A stretch of 24,948 bases of DNA from a virus. The notes beneath the pieces are model-generated. The model had not been told where the DNA came from. It was given only the letters and a program-made list of their open reading frames with translations, and did no database searches. Shown in pieces: positions 11,854 to 21,314 of this stretch; the first letter of the stretch is position 1; each line of letters opens with the position of its first letter. Made by a program: the position numbers and the translations under genes. Location of the stretch: positions 1 to 24,948 of IMG/VR virus record IMGVR_UViG_3300014903_000016; one strand, given 5' to 3'.

Positions 11854-12708
11854 TCACAGTAAGCCTAAAGGTCTGAGCATCCATTGCACATAGATAACTA
11901 CCTGAGCACTGCCCATGTTCATATATTCCAGATAATCGTCTGTGTCGTTTCTGGCGTTGACATAGCGAACGTTTCCGCCAATCAAGGCGTCATCCCATCG
12001 CCACTGTAGGAACATGTCGAACAGCATAGAGGTATTATCCTCGTAGCTTTTATTGCTTTCCCCGGAGGAATCCTTATACTCCGCTTCGACTCCTACATGT
12101 CCGAGACCGAGGCGTAGCCCCAAGGCCCAGCGAGGAGAAAGATTAGCGTTAACGCTGACGTAGGGAAGATAGGAGGTATATTTCAGTCTGTCGATCGCGC
12201 CGGGATTGCCCATATTGTGAGAGTCCCCGCTGGCGTCGGTGTATTGGATACTTTTAAAATCTCTTCCGCCTTTTTTCGCCCATTCCTGATAGAGAAAACC
12301 GACTGCGAAACTCTTGTTCAGATAGTATTCCCAGGCCGCTCCGTTGAACATTAATTTTTCGGGCATACCGGGATCGTCGAACTGATAGGCTCCCGGAATA
12401 ACGTAGGGAGCCAGCTCGATACGGACTTGGTGTCTGGTGATAATATCTGAGACGGCGGACTGATTCTGATTTGTTTCTTTGTTGGAGGAGGTAAGCGGAT
12501 TTTGAAAGACGTTGATGTTGTTTTCTCCTGATCCGGGGCCGCTGTTGGTTTTGGGAAGCGGATTGTCGGATTTTGCCTTGCAGGTTTCCCAGGTGTCACT
12601 GGTGTTAACAATTGGAACGCTGCCAATACAACCGGCGAAAGAGGAGGCGGGGCAAACGAGTAACAAAATTATAAGGAATAAAAAAAGAGAAAAAACAGAA
12701 TTTTTCAT
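11854..12708 (-). CDS. Secreted outer-membrane beta-barrel-like protein
   Basis: The 284-aa product starts with a clear signal peptide: MKNS, a hydrophobic core FLFLIILLLVCP, then ASSFAGC. Cleavage could be by signal peptidase I after SFA, or by signal peptidase II at a lipobox-like FAGC. A disordered Asn/Ser/Gly-rich linker (about 45-90) follows. The rest is alternating amphipathic strands typical of small outer-membrane barrels (ALGLRLGLGHVGVEAEYKD, then MLFDMFLQWRWDDALIGGNV), ending in YVQWMLRPLGLL. It lies between portal and terminase, has a good ribosome-binding site (GAGGGAAC) and would be expressed late. Phage outer-membrane proteins such as lambda Lom alter the host surface; a role of that kind is inferred. 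Confidence 0.65.
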   Translation of the reverse strand: MKNSVFSLFLFLIILLLVCPASSFAGCIGSVPIVNTSDTWETCKAKSDNPLPKTNSGPGSGENNINVFQNPLTSSNKETNQNQSAVSDIITRHQVRIELAPYVIPGAYQFDDPGMPEKLMFNGAAWEYYLNKSFAVGFLYQEWAKKGGRDFKSIQYTDASGDSHNMGNPGAIDRLKYTSYLPYVSVNANLSPRWALGLRLGLGHVGVEAEYKDSSGESNKSYEDNTSMLFDMFLQWRWDDALIGGNVRYVNARNDTDDYLEYMNMGSAQVVIYVQWMLRPLGLL

Positions 12709-14803: not shown

Positions 14804-16999
14804 ATGACATTATATAGTCAGGATAGCAACCCCGAAAGCGGGCAGGAACGCTTTAATTTCCTGCTCTCGAAGCTCAAAAACATCAGCGTCAACGGTCAAA
14901 GCGCCAAGGCGAGTTGTCCAGTGCATAGAGATCAAACCCCTTCTCTTGAAGTCACTCTTCAGTCCGACGAAAAAATCAGCGTCAAATGTCATGTCGGATG
15001 CGATTACAGGGACATTCTCGACTCTATTGATATCAAGCCCGCGTTTCTATATCCTCCCTCCCGCCAGCGAGCAAGCAAACAAGGCACTCAAGACCCCTCC
15101 AAAAAACGCATAGTCCATATATATCAGTATAGAAAACTAAATGGCCATCCGGCGTATCAAGCGGTAAGATTCGAGCCGAAGGATTTTCGGATGCGGCAGG
15201 ACGAAAAAGTCTGGTCGATGAAAGACGTGAGCATGGTCCCTTATAATCTGCCGGAGGTCAGCAAAGCGATCGGCAAAGAGCGGGTTATTTTATTCGTAGA
15301 GGGAGAGAAGGACGCGGACAACGGCATGCAGTTGGGATTTACCACCACTACTGTAGCCGGCGGAAATGGGAAGTGGCGGGATGAGTACGCGGAATATTTT
15401 CAGGACGCCGATCTGGTGTTTCTGCCTGATAACGATGCTCCGAGAATTTCCGGAGCTTTAAAAATCGCAAAAAAGCTCCGCAACATTGCCAGAAGGATAA
15501 GAATTCTGGCTCTGCCTGTAGGACTCAAGGGAGATATCTCGGACTGGATCAAAGCCGGCGGAGACAGGCGAAAACTGAGCGAGCTGATTTTTCTTGAGGG
15601 AGTTTTTCTGGATGAGGCTCTGAAAGTGCATCAGCTCAATCGAAGACACGCGGTGATCATGGTACAGGGCAAGCTGGCGGTGATGAACGAGGAGTTAAAC
15701 CCCACTTTCGGACGCAATGAAATTACGCTCTCGACTGATAAACATTTTGAAGGGAGGTACAGAAATAAACAGGCATTAAGAACCTTCTGGAAAAAAGACA
15801 CGGTAATGGAGCAAAAAGAAAAAAACAGATTAATAATGAATTTAGAAAAAGCGGGGAGAAAAATTCCTAAAGAATTGCGGTCGGCTTATAGCCAGAAAAC
15901 ACTCAAAATAGAAGCTGGTAAAATGTGGTCGGAATCGCCTCAGAGACGGCAATATAACGGTTTTTTCTTTGATCCGTCGGGGCCTCCGGAGCAAAATCAT
16001 CATTACAATTTGTGGCGGGGATTCAACGTGAAAGCCAAGAAGGGCGATTGTCATCTTTATTACAAGCATATTTCGGAAGTGATCGCCAAAGATTACGGCG
16101 AAATCTACGAGTATCTAATTGACTGGATGGCTGACGCGGTGCAGAACAGGAGTCAACGTCCGGGCGTAACATTAGTGTTACGCGGAGGACAGGGAACCGG
16201 GAAGGGAACTATGGTTAATATTTTTGGTAAACTTTTCGGACAACATTTTCTGCCGGTTTCGGATGCGAAACACATCGTTGGAGCGTTTAACTCGCACCAG
16301 AAAGACTGTTTGGTTATGTTTGCCGACGAAGCTTTCTACGCCGGAGACAAAAAACACGAGTCTATTCTGAAAAACATCATTACTGAAAAAACCAGAGCTA
16401 TAGAGTTCAAGGGCAAGGACGTTCAGATACTGCCAAACTACACGCGCCTAATCATGGCGTCCAATCAGCATTGGGTTGCGCCGCTGGCCATGGATGACAG
16501 GCGATTTTTCATCATAGACATCAGCAATCTGAGGGCCAAGGACAGGAAATATTTCCGCGATATCTACAATCAGATGGAGAACCAAGGAGGCTACGAGGCT
16601 CTGTTGTATGATCTCCTGCATAGAGACATCAGCAAGGTGGACATCCGCGATTATCCGAAAACACAGGCCATTCTGGACAACAAGCTGGAATCCTTAGACT
16701 CCATAGGGCAATGGGTATTCGAAAATCTGGTGACTGGCCGACTTTATAGCATGCACATAGAAAGCAGCATTTCCGGAATGTATGAAGAGTATAAGGAAAA
16801 CTGTTCTTTCAGACCGTCATCGTATAATTATTGGACAAGGGAGATGCGGAGATATTTTCCGCATCTACAGACCAGACAGGTCGCTCATGAAAGCCGACGT
16901 TATTATGACATGGACTCTATCGACCGATTGAGGACGGAGTTTGAAGCCAGGCTGGGAGCCAAGGTCAACTGGGACGATGAGGATTATCAGGGGTATTAA
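14804..16999 (+). CDS. Primase-helicase (CHC2-like zinc, TOPRIM, SF3/DUF5906)
   Basis: The 731-aa protein is a replicative primase-helicase. A zinc-binding module shows C38-P-x-H41 and C62-x-x-x-C66. The TOPRIM domain (about 155-250) shows VILFVEGEKDADNGM (catalytic Glu) and DLVFLPDNDAP, the acidic D-x-D. The C-terminal half is an SF3/DUF5906-type helicase: Walker A LRGGQGTGKGT (about 458-468), Walker B-like LVMFADEAFYAG (about 501-512), sensor MASNQHW and DDRRFFIID. Such proteins make primers and unwind phage DNA at the fork. It heads a coupled operon: its TAA abuts the next ATG. No Shine-Dalgarno is visible before its own ATG, only an A/T-rich leader below a strong hairpin. Confidence 0.85.
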   Translation: MTLYSQDSNPESGQERFNFLLSKLKNISVNGQSAKASCPVHRDQTPSLEVTLQSDEKISVKCHVGCDYRDILDSIDIKPAFLYPPSRQRASKQGTQDPSKKRIVHIYQYRKLNGHPAYQAVRFEPKDFRMRQDEKVWSMKDVSMVPYNLPEVSKAIGKERVILFVEGEKDADNGMQLGFTTTTVAGGNGKWRDEYAEYFQDADLVFLPDNDAPRISGALKIAKKLRNIARRIRILALPVGLKGDISDWIKAGGDRRKLSELIFLEGVFLDEALKVHQLNRRHAVIMVQGKLAVMNEELNPTFGRNEITLSTDKHFEGRYRNKQALRTFWKKDTVMEQKEKNRLIMNLEKAGRKIPKELRSAYSQKTLKIEAGKMWSESPQRRQYNGFFFDPSGPPEQNHHYNLWRGFNVKAKKGDCHLYYKHISEVIAKDYGEIYEYLIDWMADAVQNRSQRPGVTLVLRGGQGTGKGTMVNIFGKLFGQHFLPVSDAKHIVGAFNSHQKDCLVMFADEAFYAGDKKHESILKNIITEKTRAIEFKGKDVQILPNYTRLIMASNQHWVAPLAMDDRRFFIIDISNLRAKDRKYFRDIYNQMENQGGYEALLYDLLHRDISKVDIRDYPKTQAILDNKLESLDSIGQWVFENLVTGRLYSMHIESSISGMYEEYKENCSFRPSSYNYWTREMRRYFPHLQTRQVAHESRRYYDMDSIDRLRTEFEARLGAKVNWDDEDYQGY

Positions 17000-17671
17000 A
17001 TGATCATAAAACCGCAATCATTGGAACATGACGATCTAATAAATATAGAAGTCTCCGATGATGAAATAGAATGCCACACTGCCGCGTATAATGAGGCATT
17101 CTATCAGATAATAAAAAATTACGATTTCAAGTGGTCCGGATTGCTCAGAAAATGGATAAAAAAAGTTGTTCTAGAAAACATACAAAATAGGACTGCGGAA
17201 ATAGGCTATATTCTGCTGCTGGAAGGCTTTGTCGTTTCAATAAACGATCAGGAGATAGCTCGAAAAATACAGACGAATGACTTTCAATATGAGCCAACAA
17301 GGGTAATAGACGTCTGTTCATTTGCGGGTTATGAAAACTATCTGACGGTGTCATGGAAAAGAGAGGACTTGTATTCATGCGTTCGGCATAATCTTTATGG
17401 CAGCAAATATATTAAAAAACATAAAGCAATAGTGGTTCCTCTCTATTTTTATGAAGAGATATATGACGTTGCTGATGATTACGGATTCCTGATCACCGAG
17501 GCGGCTAGAGCCAAGATAGAAGAGGGTAGAAAAAACGTCATGACGCTCTTCAATCTCGAAGCTCCCGTAAAAAAAAACAAAACTGTCTTCCACGCCCCGA
17601 AAAAATTGGAACCCAAGCGAAGCGCTATTCATGATAACCTTAAAGACCAGCCCATATCAGCATCAATCTGA
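17000..17671 (+). CDS. HARP-like accessory protein of the SNF2 helicase (putative)
   Basis: The 223-aa product begins directly after the primase stop, with AGGGG as ribosome-binding site, and overlaps the SNF2 gene by 41 nt. The piece YDFKWSGLLRKWIKKV resembles the F-x-W/Y-x-x-x-x-x-x-W hallmark of HARP-type and related substrate-recognition modules next to SNF2 motors. A second part, IVVPLYFYEEIYDVADDYGF, then LITEAARAKI, resembles the closing helix pair of such modules. The C-terminal 40 residues are basic and probably disordered. In many phages this region is fused to the helicase; here it would be a separate subunit. The domain match is weak and by eye, and the function is inferred mainly from the overlap. 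Confidence 0.45.
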   Translation: MIIKPQSLEHDDLINIEVSDDEIECHTAAYNEAFYQIIKNYDFKWSGLLRKWIKKVVLENIQNRTAEIGYILLLEGFVVSINDQEIARKIQTNDFQYEPTRVIDVCSFAGYENYLTVSWKREDLYSCVRHNLYGSKYIKKHKAIVVPLYFYEEIYDVADDYGFLITEAARAKIEEGRKNVMTLFNLEAPVKKNKTVFHAPKKLEPKRSAIHDNLKDQPISASI

Positions 17672-19019
17672 CGCGGTAAAAAAACTGTTGCCAAGCAAAG
17701 TCGGAGCTTTATTCATGGAAATGGGGACCGGCAAAAGCAGAACCGCTATGGAATTGATCGCTCTGAGGCAAAAAAAAATATCAAACATAATCTGGTTTTG
17801 TCCTTTCTCTATAAAATGGGCCTTGGCCGAAGAACTTCAGAAACATATTGCCGACCAGCCCGATTTGATACATGTTTTCAGCGATAAGACGAAGTTGAGC
17901 GACATACCCATTGAAAAACTGCATATTGTGGGAATAGAGTCCGTCAGCAGTAGTCCCAACGTTGTCTTCTGTCTGCATAAAATTATCAGCGAAAACAGCT
18001 ATATTGTGGTTGACGAATCTTTTTACATCAAAAATCCGTCAGCCAAGCGCACTATCTGGATCAGCGAGCTGACCAAAAATTGTCGCTATAAGTTGATTTT
18101 AACGGGAACTCCCATAGCTCATAGCGTTATTGATCTTTATGCTCAGATAAAGTTTTTGTCCCGAAAAATATTCGGATACAGCTCCTATTACGCATTTTCG
18201 AAAAATCATGTCGAGATAATAGAAGAGGACTGGGGATACTCGAAAGAAGCCCGCAACACTGAATATTTAGCGGCCAGACTTGAACCGTATGTCTATCAGA
18301 TTACCAAGGAAGAATGTCTCGATCTGCCGGACAAGGTCTATCAGCCGCATTATTTCGATATGAGCTTCGAGCAAAGAGAAGGTTATAATCTCGCTAAAGA
18401 CGAGCTTCTGTTCAATCTGGATGTGGATGACTTCGATTATAAAAGCATATTGCAGCTCTTTACCGTGCTACAGCAGATAGTCTGCGGCTTCCGGTATCAT
18501 AAAGAGAAGGTGGAAACTTTCGAGAATAACCGTCTCAAGGTTCTTATTGACGTGCTCAATTACATTCCGGAAGATAAGAAAATCATCATTTTCTGCAAAT
18601 ACCGCTATGACATTCAAGCAATATCCGAAGCGTTAAGCGAAGAAAAAATATCGCTCTATCATGGCGGCCTGAAAGAAAAACCCAGAAAACGGGAGTTGAA
18701 AACTTTCAGAAGCGAAAGTCGAATTTTCCTGAGCACTATCGGGACTGGCGGTCATGGCCTGACTCTAAACGAAGCTCCATATACTATTTTTTATAACAAC
18801 ACTTTCAAATACACGGACCGCGTTCAGGCGGAAGATCGCAATCATCGTATCGGACAGGAGGTCTCTCCGAATTATATAGACATAATCTGCAATGACAGTA
18901 TCGATAAAAAAATAGAGAGATCGTTTGAGCTGAAAAGCGATGTAGTCAATTTGTTCAAAAAACAGGTTAAGCAAGCCGACGATATTGAAAAACGCGAATC
19001 CATGCTGGAGACTCTATGA
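17631..19019 (+). CDS. SNF2-type superfamily 2 helicase/translocase
   Basis: The 462-aa protein has the full set of SF2/SNF2 motifs: Q-motif-like SPYQHQSDAV, Walker A MEMGTGKSRTA (GTGKS at 32-36), motif II VVDESFYIKN (D128, E129), motif III LILTGTP. In the second RecA-like lobe are IIFCKYRYD, HGGLKEKPRKRE, motif V FLSTIGTGGHGLTLNEA and motif VI DRVQAEDRNHRIGQ. It is a compact SNF2 motor that would translocate on DNA or displace proteins, at phage replication forks or on modified/recombining DNA. Motif II is DESF rather than DEAH. The start overlaps the HARP-like gene and the stop overlaps the DUF3440 start by 4 nt. Confidence 0.85.
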   Translation: MITLKTSPYQHQSDAVKKLLPSKVGALFMEMGTGKSRTAMELIALRQKKISNIIWFCPFSIKWALAEELQKHIADQPDLIHVFSDKTKLSDIPIEKLHIVGIESVSSSPNVVFCLHKIISENSYIVVDESFYIKNPSAKRTIWISELTKNCRYKLILTGTPIAHSVIDLYAQIKFLSRKIFGYSSYYAFSKNHVEIIEEDWGYSKEARNTEYLAARLEPYVYQITKEECLDLPDKVYQPHYFDMSFEQREGYNLAKDELLFNLDVDDFDYKSILQLFTVLQQIVCGFRYHKEKVETFENNRLKVLIDVLNYIPEDKKIIIFCKYRYDIQAISEALSEEKISLYHGGLKEKPRKRELKTFRSESRIFLSTIGTGGHGLTLNEAPYTIFYNNTFKYTDRVQAEDRNHRIGQEVSPNYIDIICNDSIDKKIERSFELKSDVVNLFKKQVKQADDIEKRESMLETL

Positions 19020-20305
19020 GTAAAAAATATTTGGATATGAACGTCTACGAGGCCGCACTGCAAAGATTGAATTATATCTATGATGAATTTTCGGAGGATG
19101 AAATCTGGCTGGCTCTCAGCGGCGGCAAGGATAGTTCACTCTGCTTTTACCTGATGAAGGAAGTCGCGCTGGCTAAAGGAATCAAGACGATCAATATTAT
19201 GATTATCGATTTGGAAGGACATTACAAACTCCATAGCGATTTCCTTGAAGAGCTGATAGCCGACGATGAAATTCAGGTGAACGGCTACTGGATATGTCTG
19301 CCGTTTAATTTGTCTAACGCATCCTCCTTTCATATGCCGAAATGGCTATGCTGGGAAGCCGAGAAGAAGGATAAGTGGGTTAGGCCAATGCCTGACAACA
19401 GACTGGTCGTAAACGAGCTAAACAACCCGTTTGGAGAGTATTTTCGGAAGGGAATGGAGTTCGAGGAGTTTATTATTCAGTTTCCCCGGTATTTAGTGGA
19501 GCAAAAAGGGCTTGGCAAAGTGGCGCAGGTGATAGGAATCAGAACGCAGGAGAGCTATAATCGTTATCTAAAAATGAAAGTTCGGGCCCACAGAGAGTTT
19601 TATAATGGCATTCAATGGATATTGAAGCAGAAAATCACCGGATACGACACCTATAGCGTCCATCCGATCTACGATTGGGACATCAAGGATGTCTGGAAAT
19701 ATTCTTCAACCGTTCCCTATAACAAAGTTTATGATAAAATGTACCTGGCCGGGTATCCGTTGAACTCTATGAGAATATGTCAGCCTTACGGAGAAGAGCA
19801 AAGGGACAACATTGATCTGTTCTGCAAGATAGAGCCTGAGACCTGGGCCAGAATAGTCGAGAGAGTAGGCGGAGTAAATTTCGCCAAGCTCTATAAGGGG
19901 AAAAACATCATTAAGGGAAGGATTAAAAAACCGGAAAATACGACATGGGAGAACTGGTCGCGGCTCATATTGACGACTATGCCTCCGTTTTTGAGAGATC
20001 ACTATCTGAGAAGAATCAACGTGTTTTTGAGGTGGTGGCGAAAAAGGATTCATGACGATATTCCGCATGTTTACGCGAAAGAATATCATGAGAATGAAGC
20101 GTTTGATGAAGAAGGTCTCTATGTCGTGAAAATTCACGATGAGCATCCGATGGATACCGCCGCTAAGAAACGAAAGCCCTCCTGGAGGAGAATAGCGAAA
20201 GTTCTGCTTAAGGGAGATTATTTATGCAAAAACTTAAAATTCGCGGCTAATCAGCAGGAGTATGAAAAACTTGAAGCTTTAAAGGAGAGATATGCTAATT
20301 TGTGA
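19016..20305 (+). CDS. DUF3440 PAPS-reductase-like ATPase (IbrA-like)
   Basis: The 429-aa product has the PP-loop SGGKDSS (35-41) after an EIWLALSGG strand, as in PAPS reductases and N-type ATP pyrophosphatases, and the DUF3440 features IGIRTQESYNRY, HPIYDWDIKDVW, YPLNSMRICQPYGEEQRDN and the C-terminal WRRIAKVLLKGDYLCKNLKF. The family (IbrA type) is found with ParB-like IbrB proteins on phages and mobile elements. Its substrate is not settled. PP-loop enzymes adenylate a substrate, and in DNA phosphorothioation relatives activate sulfur transfer. A good ribosome-binding site (CTGGAGACTCT) and the 4-nt overlap with the SNF2 gene imply joint expression. The family assignment is firm; the reaction is unknown. 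Confidence 0.8.
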   Translation: MSKKYLDMNVYEAALQRLNYIYDEFSEDEIWLALSGGKDSSLCFYLMKEVALAKGIKTINIMIIDLEGHYKLHSDFLEELIADDEIQVNGYWICLPFNLSNASSFHMPKWLCWEAEKKDKWVRPMPDNRLVVNELNNPFGEYFRKGMEFEEFIIQFPRYLVEQKGLGKVAQVIGIRTQESYNRYLKMKVRAHREFYNGIQWILKQKITGYDTYSVHPIYDWDIKDVWKYSSTVPYNKVYDKMYLAGYPLNSMRICQPYGEEQRDNIDLFCKIEPETWARIVERVGGVNFAKLYKGKNIIKGRIKKPENTTWENWSRLILTTMPPFLRDHYLRRINVFLRWWRKRIHDDIPHVYAKEYHENEAFDEEGLYVVKIHDEHPMDTAAKKRKPSWRRIAKVLLKGDYLCKNLKFAANQQEYEKLEALKERYANL

Positions 20306-20852
20306 TACTGTCAAACAGGTGTTTGATAAAATGAAGCATGGTTATGATTTGTCTGAAGAGGAAAAGCGGTTGGCGTTTCCATGTCTATTCGCCGAACTGG
20401 TCCTGCTTGAGAAGGTCCAGTTAAATGACTACAATCCAAACGCGGTGGCTCCCCCGGAGATGCGTCTGTTGAAAAAGTCTATTGAGGAAGACGGCTACAC
20501 GCAGCCTATAGTCACTATCTATGACACTGAAAACGACAAATATATAGTTGTGGATGGAGCGCACAGGTATAAGAACGCGGTAAAATTCAAATTGAGTCAT
20601 GTGCCAGTCACAGTGATCAATAAGGAAATTAAGGATCGTATGGCGTCCACTATCCGCCATAATAGAGCCAGGGGAGAGCATAAAGTCACCCAAATGAGCA
20701 ATATCGTTGCGGAGCTGGTTTTGTTGGGGTGGGACAATCTAAAAATCAGCCGGCATCTAGGGATGGAGGCTGACGAAGTTTTGAGGTTGAAGCAGAATAC
20801 CGGCCTGCCGGAAATATTCAAAAATCATGAATATTCCAGGGCTTGGGAATAG
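20292..20852 (+). CDS. ParB-like nuclease-fold protein (IbrB-like)
   Basis: The 186-aa protein has a ParB/Srx fold core: KKSIEEDGYTQPIVTIYD, then YIVVDGAHRYKNAV with the conserved D-G-x-H-R (88-92), and VPVTVINKE. After the core comes RHNRARGEHKVTQMSNIV and a helix-turn-helix-like segment LGWDNLKISRHLGMEADEV. This IbrB-type arrangement occurs beside DUF3440 proteins. ParB folds bind or cut DNA, or bind CTP or ATP; which applies here is unknown. The start, preceded by AAAGGAGAG, overlaps the DUF3440 gene by 14 nt, so the two are coupled. It is the last gene of the plus-strand operon. Confidence 0.8.
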   Translation: MLICDTVKQVFDKMKHGYDLSEEEKRLAFPCLFAELVLLEKVQLNDYNPNAVAPPEMRLLKKSIEEDGYTQPIVTIYDTENDKYIVVDGAHRYKNAVKFKLSHVPVTVINKEIKDRMASTIRHNRARGEHKVTQMSNIVAELVLLGWDNLKISRHLGMEADEVLRLKQNTGLPEIFKNHEYSRAWE

Positions 20853-20882: not shown

Positions 20883-21299
20883 TTATGCGGGAGTATACGT
20901 CATTAATGTGTAGCGACCTCTTTCTCCCGTTTTTACAAAGCCGCGCTTTGATAAAACGCCTACTGAGTCAGGAGAAGCCACAACTTTCATCACTTTCTTT
21001 TGCCGCTTCAGATACTTCATACGCGCCGACATCAATTTATTATACAGTTTTAGATGTCTGTGTTCAGGCAGAACATACGCATGCTTCAGAGTAATAATTT
21101 TTTTGATTTCAGCCGCGCAAAATCCCATCACTTCATCATCTGAATTTTTAGCTATCCACCAAGTGTAACTATCATCGCTGGACATGCAGTCCCCCAGCTC
21201 CGCTCTGATTTTTTTAGACGCGAAAAACTCTCCCATATAGGAAAAAAACAAACGTTTATCATCCGCGTGAGACATTTTGACTATTTCTATGTTTTTCAT
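20883..21299 (-). CDS. GNAT-family N-acetyltransferase
   Basis: The start is placed at the ATG at 21299, which has GGAG six bases upstream; an in-frame ATG at 21311 has none. The 138-aa product shows the GNAT order: strand pair YTWWIAKNSDDEVMGFCAAE, strand LKHAYVLPEHRH, and the acetyl-CoA-binding turn and helix LKLYNKLMSARMKYLKRQKK (R/Q-x-x-x-x-L-x pattern). It then has VMKVVASPDSVGVLSKRGFV, where the L-x-x-x-G-F is typical of the fold end. It would transfer an acetyl group to an unknown small molecule or protein. It is the last gene of the leftward regulatory operon and faces the ParB-like gene. Confidence 0.7.
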   Translation of the reverse strand: MKNIEIVKMSHADDKRLFFSYMGEFFASKKIRAELGDCMSSDDSYTWWIAKNSDDEVMGFCAAEIKKIITLKHAYVLPEHRHLKLYNKLMSARMKYLKRQKKVMKVVASPDSVGVLSKRGFVKTGERGRYTLMTYTPA

Positions 21300-21305
21300 T
21301 GCTAT

Positions 21306-21309
21306 CTCC
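21306..21309 (-). promoter_or_regulatory. Shine-Dalgarno fixing the GNAT start
   Basis: GGAG on the minus strand is six bases from the ATG at 21299 and lies inside the possible longer reading from 21311. This makes the shorter start more likely. Confidence 0.6.
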
Positions 21310-21314
21310 ATTTA

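Follow-up and report, generated by a model that had tools for sequence, protein, structure and literature searches.

A conserved phage cassette links a candidate HARP-like protein and an SNF2 motor to a DUF3440/ParB-type pair

Do the genes that overlap behind a phage primase belong to one system, and if so, on what would that system act? The question is raised by a 24.9-kb virus record from a tailed phage, whose terminase, portal, protease and capsid genes lie on the minus strand; this whole stretch of 24,948 nucleotides is referred to as the window. The first-pass annotation had described four overlapping genes directly behind the primase, and open reading frames (ORFs), called mechanically here as in all other loci, bear this out. 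The genes, hereafter H, S, D, P and the neighbouring G, are as follows.

14804 to 16999, plus strand: primase/helicase (DUF5906, primase-type; DUF5906 1.9e-22, PHROG primases 7.8e-44), a neighbour and not a conserved part
17000 to 17671, plus strand: H, 223 aa, with two predicted HARP/XPB-DRD-like units and a disordered tail (from predicted fold and homologues)
17627 to 17647, plus strand: C-terminal tail of H, I210-D216, IHDNLKD, spanning the start of S; a possible docking peptide
17631 to 19019, plus strand: S, SNF2-family ATPase of 462 aa (Pfam SNF2-rel_dom 2.9e-20, Helicase_C 1.5e-14, PHROG 62 9e-98)
19016 to 20305, plus strand: D, DUF3440 (IbrA-like) protein of 429 aa (DUF3440 2.3e-29, PAPS_reduct 3.7e-9, PHROG 2302 4.4e-78)
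20292 to 20852, plus strand: P, ParB/Srx-type (IbrB-like) protein of 186 aa (ParB_N 6e-8, above the Pfam cut-off; PHROG 2159 2.5e-61)
20883 to 21311, minus strand: G, GNAT-fold protein of 142 aa, convergent to P (Acetyltransf_10 4.7e-8)

The overlaps are 41 nt for H/S, 4 nt for S/D and 14 nt for D/P, the ATG of H is the base right after the primase stop codon, and the start codons of S and D are backed by homologues. Elsewhere in the window, in the terminase-portal interval, the minus strand (11854-12708) encodes a 284-aa protein with a signal peptide-like start and without a PHROG match.

Whether the four genes co-occur in other genomes had been singled out in the first-pass annotation as a test of its proposal, by a neighbourhood survey. 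Using searches made with SNF2 alone and counting D as linked when it lay within 3 kb of S, we found D beside S in 60 of 60 close SNF2 relatives versus 1 of 100 distant ones. In IMG/VR, the window SNF2 retrieved 7 loci at 44-50% identity, every one with H, S, D and P all present, and 73 at about 31-35%, in all of which D, P, H and G were absent. When the SNF2 alignment was scanned against 84,980 bacterial and archaeal species genomes, many of them metagenome-assembled, 53 close loci were followed by a drop; these scans rely on short conserved peptides and the counts are those of loci retrieved. D was adjacent in all 53, P in 48, H in 43 and GNAT in 26, and the five loci without P break off at the end of a contig, close to or within D. 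Among distant genomic SNF2 loci, D was beside S in one of 27. H-S-D-P(-G) is a real conserved cassette, far from chance. The SNF2, HARP-like and GNAT partners expected around the DUF3440/ParB pair recur together in other genomes, and the GNAT gene, first noticed as a convergent neighbour and matching Pfam GNAT, belongs to the set. The link to the primase holds for this window and not as part of the system: primase homologues occur in few loci elsewhere and are seldom adjacent, and we rejected the gene as a cassette member.

According to record titles, cassette hosts include Bacillota, Pseudomonadota, Desulfobacterota, Nitrospirota, Chloroflexota, Acidobacteriota, Bacteroidota, Synergistota and cyanobacteria. 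The median gap of both H/S and S/D is -4 nt across loci, and integrase or terminase genes are close to several of them. The only hit of a plasmid scan is a mobilizable Paenibacillus larvae plasmid that carries all of H-S-D-G-P; it was found afterwards and played no part in model building. The cassette thus occurs in phages, prophages and one mobilizable plasmid. No description of such a set was found in the open-licence papers searched, an absence that is not proof of novelty.

Pairwise protein distances, determined for up to 67 cassettes, were correlated for H and S (r 0.59) and for D and P (r 0.69) and only weakly for S-D (0.22), S-P (0.19) and H-D (0.26); all values exceeded permutation, and shared ancestry inflates every one of them. 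Because H-S and D-P co-vary, and weakly across pairs, the comparison indicates that the cassette is made of two modules, H+S and D+P. Behind one motor, the D-P pair seems to be exchangeable as a unit, as a given H-S type repeatedly has different D-P subtypes as partners. In a second subtype, D is shorter (about 370 aa) and, in 10 loci, a gene of ~290 aa separates S and D; this uncharacterised gene (for example, L172 11407-12282 and L207 2645-3526) was seen in the short-D subtype only. In seven loci of this subtype (L096, L172, L206, L207, L216, L217 and L219), a DPPW-type N6/N4 DNA methylase gene is found directly 3′ of P.

The modular pattern would also be expected if the role of H-S were to remodel phage replication forks or to act as an annealing helicase, with D-P(-G) as a separate pair of accessory or regulatory function that lies next to it since both are early. 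D-P is common without S, and many phages have related SNF2 genes without D. We nevertheless regard this explanation as rather doubtful, since D adjoins every close SNF2, the same H-S type meets varied D-P subtypes again and again, and GNAT forms one protein with S in Selenomonas (L218) and with D in Aneurinibacillus (L203). These two natural fusions, the H-H-S fusion of an Anaerolineae genome (L179), where H is duplicated and joined to S in the only case of its kind, and the complete plasmid copy support one machine. In another locus (L189), S carries at its front a protein resembling one of the replacements found in the H slot. The strongest fact against a single machine is that D-P occurs mostly without H-S: among 80 D-anchored IMG/VR loci, the H-type set was present in 9 and absent from 71. 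In E. coli K-12, the D-P pair is ybdNM, adjoining a citrate regulator (PMC9068703). D-P is therefore not dependent on the motor. In several cultured phages, D-P comes together with related SNF2 genes; the motor is an addition for one setting, or else other motors serve D-P elsewhere. Cultured phages of laboratory hosts with D-P include Mycobacterium phage Gaia (M. smegmatis mc2 155), Escherichia phage PhiR5_2 (E. coli K-12) and Streptococcus thermophilus phages CHPC1230 and CHPC1062. It also counts against one machine that shared expression timing alone may keep genes together near a phage replication module.

The assignment of S as an SNF2 motor was confirmed: it combines an N-terminal SNF2 with a C-terminal helicase domain, its motifs are intact, and the GTGK Walker A, the DES-type motif II and the EDRNHRIGQ motif VI are invariant or nearly so in the SNF2 alignment. 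The H protein is more elusive, with no match in Pfam, PHROG, NCBIfam or PADLOC models. Since H diverges fast, the window H as query found no homologue in viral contigs and phages, and its homologues, at least 55 of them immediately 5′ of the SNF2 gene, were reached solely via SNF2 and DUF3440 neighbourhoods. The AlphaFold2 model of H (pLDDT 87) has two successive beta-beta-alpha-beta-beta-alpha units at approximately residues 12-84 and 100-170, and each half independently aligns best with the XPB DRD (Z 5.6-5.8, rmsd 2.0-2.3 Å over 54-57 residues), where Z below 8 can reflect a common arrangement. HARP and the XPB DRD are reportedly homologous, as Mason et al. are said to have concluded in 2014. 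Foldseek gave no significant match for the H model. No member of the H alignment matched PF07443 (HARP) in the Pfam scan, nor was a match found in 8 cassette-carrying genomes; the missing Pfam HARP match and a modest Z near 5.7 count against the HARP part of our model. Sequence profile comparison gave no significant internal repeat in H, so that the tandem-unit reading comes from structure. Altogether, the predicted fold makes the earlier HARP-like label plausible and is suggestive of two tandem HARP/XPB-DRD-like units.

A HARP domain consists of a five-stranded sheet and two helices, and SMARCAL1 has two of them and T4 UvsW one (PMC4666394). Two HARP domains fused onto other SNF2 proteins confer annealing-helicase activity (PMC4035279). 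The cassette resembles SMARCAL1/HARP and T4 UvsW in having HARP-type units, here predicted, ahead of a superfamily-2 motor, and the H-H-S fusion adds to the likeness; unlike SMARCAL1, which is one chain, H and S are separate in the window and in most genomes. Two candidates from Microcystis phage Mwe-JY13 were rejected: its post-primase gene has no similarity to H, and its helicase falls outside the close SNF2 relatives. Longer H proteins have an extra N-terminal region matching PHROG 16123 (for example, L078 7323-8612), in which the pattern LxGTEKQIAWAETIR...WWIDNR has a weak likeness to anti-CRISPR AcrIF23 (profile E 0.012). In a 176-kb gut phage (L265 5953-6964), an H homologue has none of S, D and P nearby in the 13 kb examined, and H may act alone too.

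The tail of H is a short acidic peptide, [IV]xx[DE][LF]x[DE], as in ILDDLKD and VADEFRD, with IHDNLKD in the window. The strict pattern, which was defined after looking and is shared by H proteins of common ancestry, was found in 46 of 55 H proteins compared with 2-3% of other ORFs. The independent support for the tail is therefore its recurrence on unrelated proteins: where the cassette is without H, 7 of the 10 unrelated small proteins filling the H slot also have it, including those of Lactobacillus, Streptococcus, Fusobacterium and Flavobacterium phages. Before distant SNF2s, the pattern was found in one of 10 genes. We considered the tail as a by-product of a ribosome-binding site and rejected this, as it is also kept in loci with H and S separated by hundreds of bases. 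It is probably a docking tail for S.

For D, the PP-loop S-x-GKDS is present in 146 of 146 sequences, and D65, E67, R176, E179, D220, R253 and R283 are conserved in at least 97% of them. The family is found in 215 phage records at E 1e-5. The AlphaFold model (pLDDT 87) gave the best Z with FAD synthase (16.5), followed by CysD (14.4) and APS/PAPS reductases (about 14), in a ranking that covers the PP-loop families present in the fold lists. D might be a true PAPS reductase or sulfur transferase, serving auxiliary sulfur metabolism or phosphorothioation; it has the PAPS_reduct match and weak DndC matches, and phage PAPS-reductase-like genes have been annotated as sulfur auxiliary metabolism (PMC10434257). 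However, the reductase catalytic motif [EQ]CG[LIM]H is found in none of the 146 D proteins and no cysteine column is conserved above about 75%, whereas DndC requires cysteines for its 4Fe-4S cluster (PMC11662687, PMC10853773). A metal site made of the four common cysteines (94, 112, 255 and 404) was also rejected, because these are lost independently and are not essential. The missing motif and cysteines argue against reduction and DndC-type sulfur transfer; a sulfur role is strongly disfavoured, to the point of being very improbable, and the sulfur-type reading in the first-pass annotation has to be given up. The label 'PAPS reductase' is misleading, and conservation together with the predicted fold argues for a PP-loop ATP-pyrophosphatase-fold enzyme of the adenylyl transfer or activation type. 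Like DNA phosphorothioation by DndC and DndB, the cassette has a PP-loop enzyme with a ParB-superfamily partner, but D is without the DndC cysteines and no DndA, DndD or DndE was among the six proteins scanned with PADLOC.

In P, the motifs DG[FA]HR and IRHNRARG are kept nearly without exception, and D88, G89, H91, R92, N124, G128 and H130 are invariant in 94 homologues. Its best PDB match is the SbnI serine kinase (8e-4), and it also matches PHROG 498, annotated as DNA methyltransferase. At the position of the catalytic Cys of sulfiredoxin (GCHR), P has F or A and no Cys, and DG[FA]HR stands in place of the GERR motif of partition ParB; there is no ParA in the cassette. D and P form the IbrA/IbrB pair that had been recognised at the outset, with DUF3440 and an adjoining ParB-like P in nearly every locus. 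D and P share both families and adjacency with IbrA/IbrB, of which ybdN-ybdM of E. coli K-12 is an example; the difference is that D-P is here joined to a HARP-like protein, an SNF2 motor and a GNAT.

IbrA and IbrB were first reported and annotated as co-activators of prophage gene expression, and the K-12 homologue YbdM is a predicted transcription factor (PMC9068703). D-P could accordingly be a transcription co-activator pair, with the motor opening promoters or remodelling the nucleoid. We consider this improbable, because the invariant ATP-pyrophosphatase loop and adenylyltransferase-like fold of D are hard to square with a pure regulator, and the reported activation was possibly indirect.

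Among loci with D and P, the GNAT gene is in the order D-G-P in 31 and G-D-P in 6, and the window is the only locus where it is inverted after P. Active acetyl transfer is not assured, because many copies, the window copy included, have a degenerate acetyl-CoA loop. Elsewhere, the slot beside P is filled by GNAT or an unknown alpha-helical domain. An ectoine-synthase-like cupin is fused to P in Mycobacterium phage Gaia (L010 7311-8207), and an annotated ectoine-synthase/ParB-type gene adjoins P in Pseudoalteromonas phage XCL1123 (L007 8311-8700); these cupins suggest ectoine-like chemistry. Long P proteins (L026 472-1596, L044 171-1298 and L053 8884-9987) have a conserved C-terminal domain of ~150 aa, WECYPAGFY...CEHYLTNEKMNRIAWLGQA, which has no Pfam match and is a separate gene in Microcystis phage Mwe-JY13.

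In Fusobacterium phage phiFN37 (L006 6421-13477), a D-P-SNF2 set lies ~1.4 kb from a ParB, queuine tRNA-ribosyltransferase and queuosine-transporter set, giving two ParB-plus-enzyme pairs in one phage. An action on DNA is suggested by the motor, the replication-region setting, the methylase neighbours and the ParB and TGT-type pair of phiFN37. Taken together, they are most simply read as a modifier driven by ATP and working with a DNA motor. The cassette resembles the Dpd 7-deazaguanine system and phage TGT and ParB-like pairs in combining a base-modifying-type enzyme with a ParB-like protein; the Dpd system includes the SNF2-type helicase DpdE, and phiFN37 has both kinds of pair in close proximity. 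The difference is that D is a PP-loop enzyme and not a transglycosylase, and the cassette is without 7-deazaguanine genes.

We therefore favour, tentatively and at somewhat less than an even chance, one DNA-acting machine in which the H+S motor serves D+P(-G). H+S would be a two-subunit motor, consisting of a tandem HARP/DRD-like junction-binding protein and an SNF2 dsDNA translocase, that works like the one-chain HARP-HARP-SNF2 of SMARCAL1 or like phage T4 UvsW, with H probably docking on S via its acidic C-terminal tail. D+P would be an ATP-consuming adenylyl-transfer-type PP-loop enzyme and its DGxHR ParB/Srx partner, often with a GNAT-fold helper. In the physical complex that we infer, the motor would bring D-P(-G) to replicating or branched phage DNA, P would recognise DNA or nucleotide, and D would activate the target with AMP, leading to the addition of a non-sulfur group that may protect phage DNA. 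The more specific proposal, that D-P(-G) installs a novel non-sulfur DNA modification via adenylate activation, perhaps with acylation by the GNAT, and that the split HARP-SNF2 motor carries the enzymes to phage DNA that is replicating or branched, is possible, if on the doubtful side.

Alternatively, the cassette could be an anti-defence or inter-phage conflict system, in which the motor and the ParB-like protein would process DNA of the host or of a competitor, while D-P alters or uses up a nucleotide. S resembles the helicases ZorD (Zorya), DpdE (Dpd) and those of DISARM in the PADLOC scan, mobile-element ParB/Srx domains can be NTPases and nicking nucleases (PMC5512222), and the set is carried by mobile elements as listed above. 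This is unlikely, as the SNF2 resemblance is generic, the cassette is without a recognisable nuclease, and D and P fit no defence model well.

DUF3440/ParB pairs are widespread in phages and bacteria, and the usual, putative labels for them are PAPS reductase or co-activator. The tie of one branch to a HARP-SNF2 motor and a GNAT suggests DNA as the place of action, and sulfur chemistry is no longer the default reading for these pairs. H-S is a candidate prokaryotic two-subunit counterpart of SMARCAL1 and a possible model for how HARP modules make a translocase an annealing helicase. If the reading as a novel modification is true, the cassette would be an undescribed DNA hypermodification machine and would answer what the role of IbrA/IbrB is.
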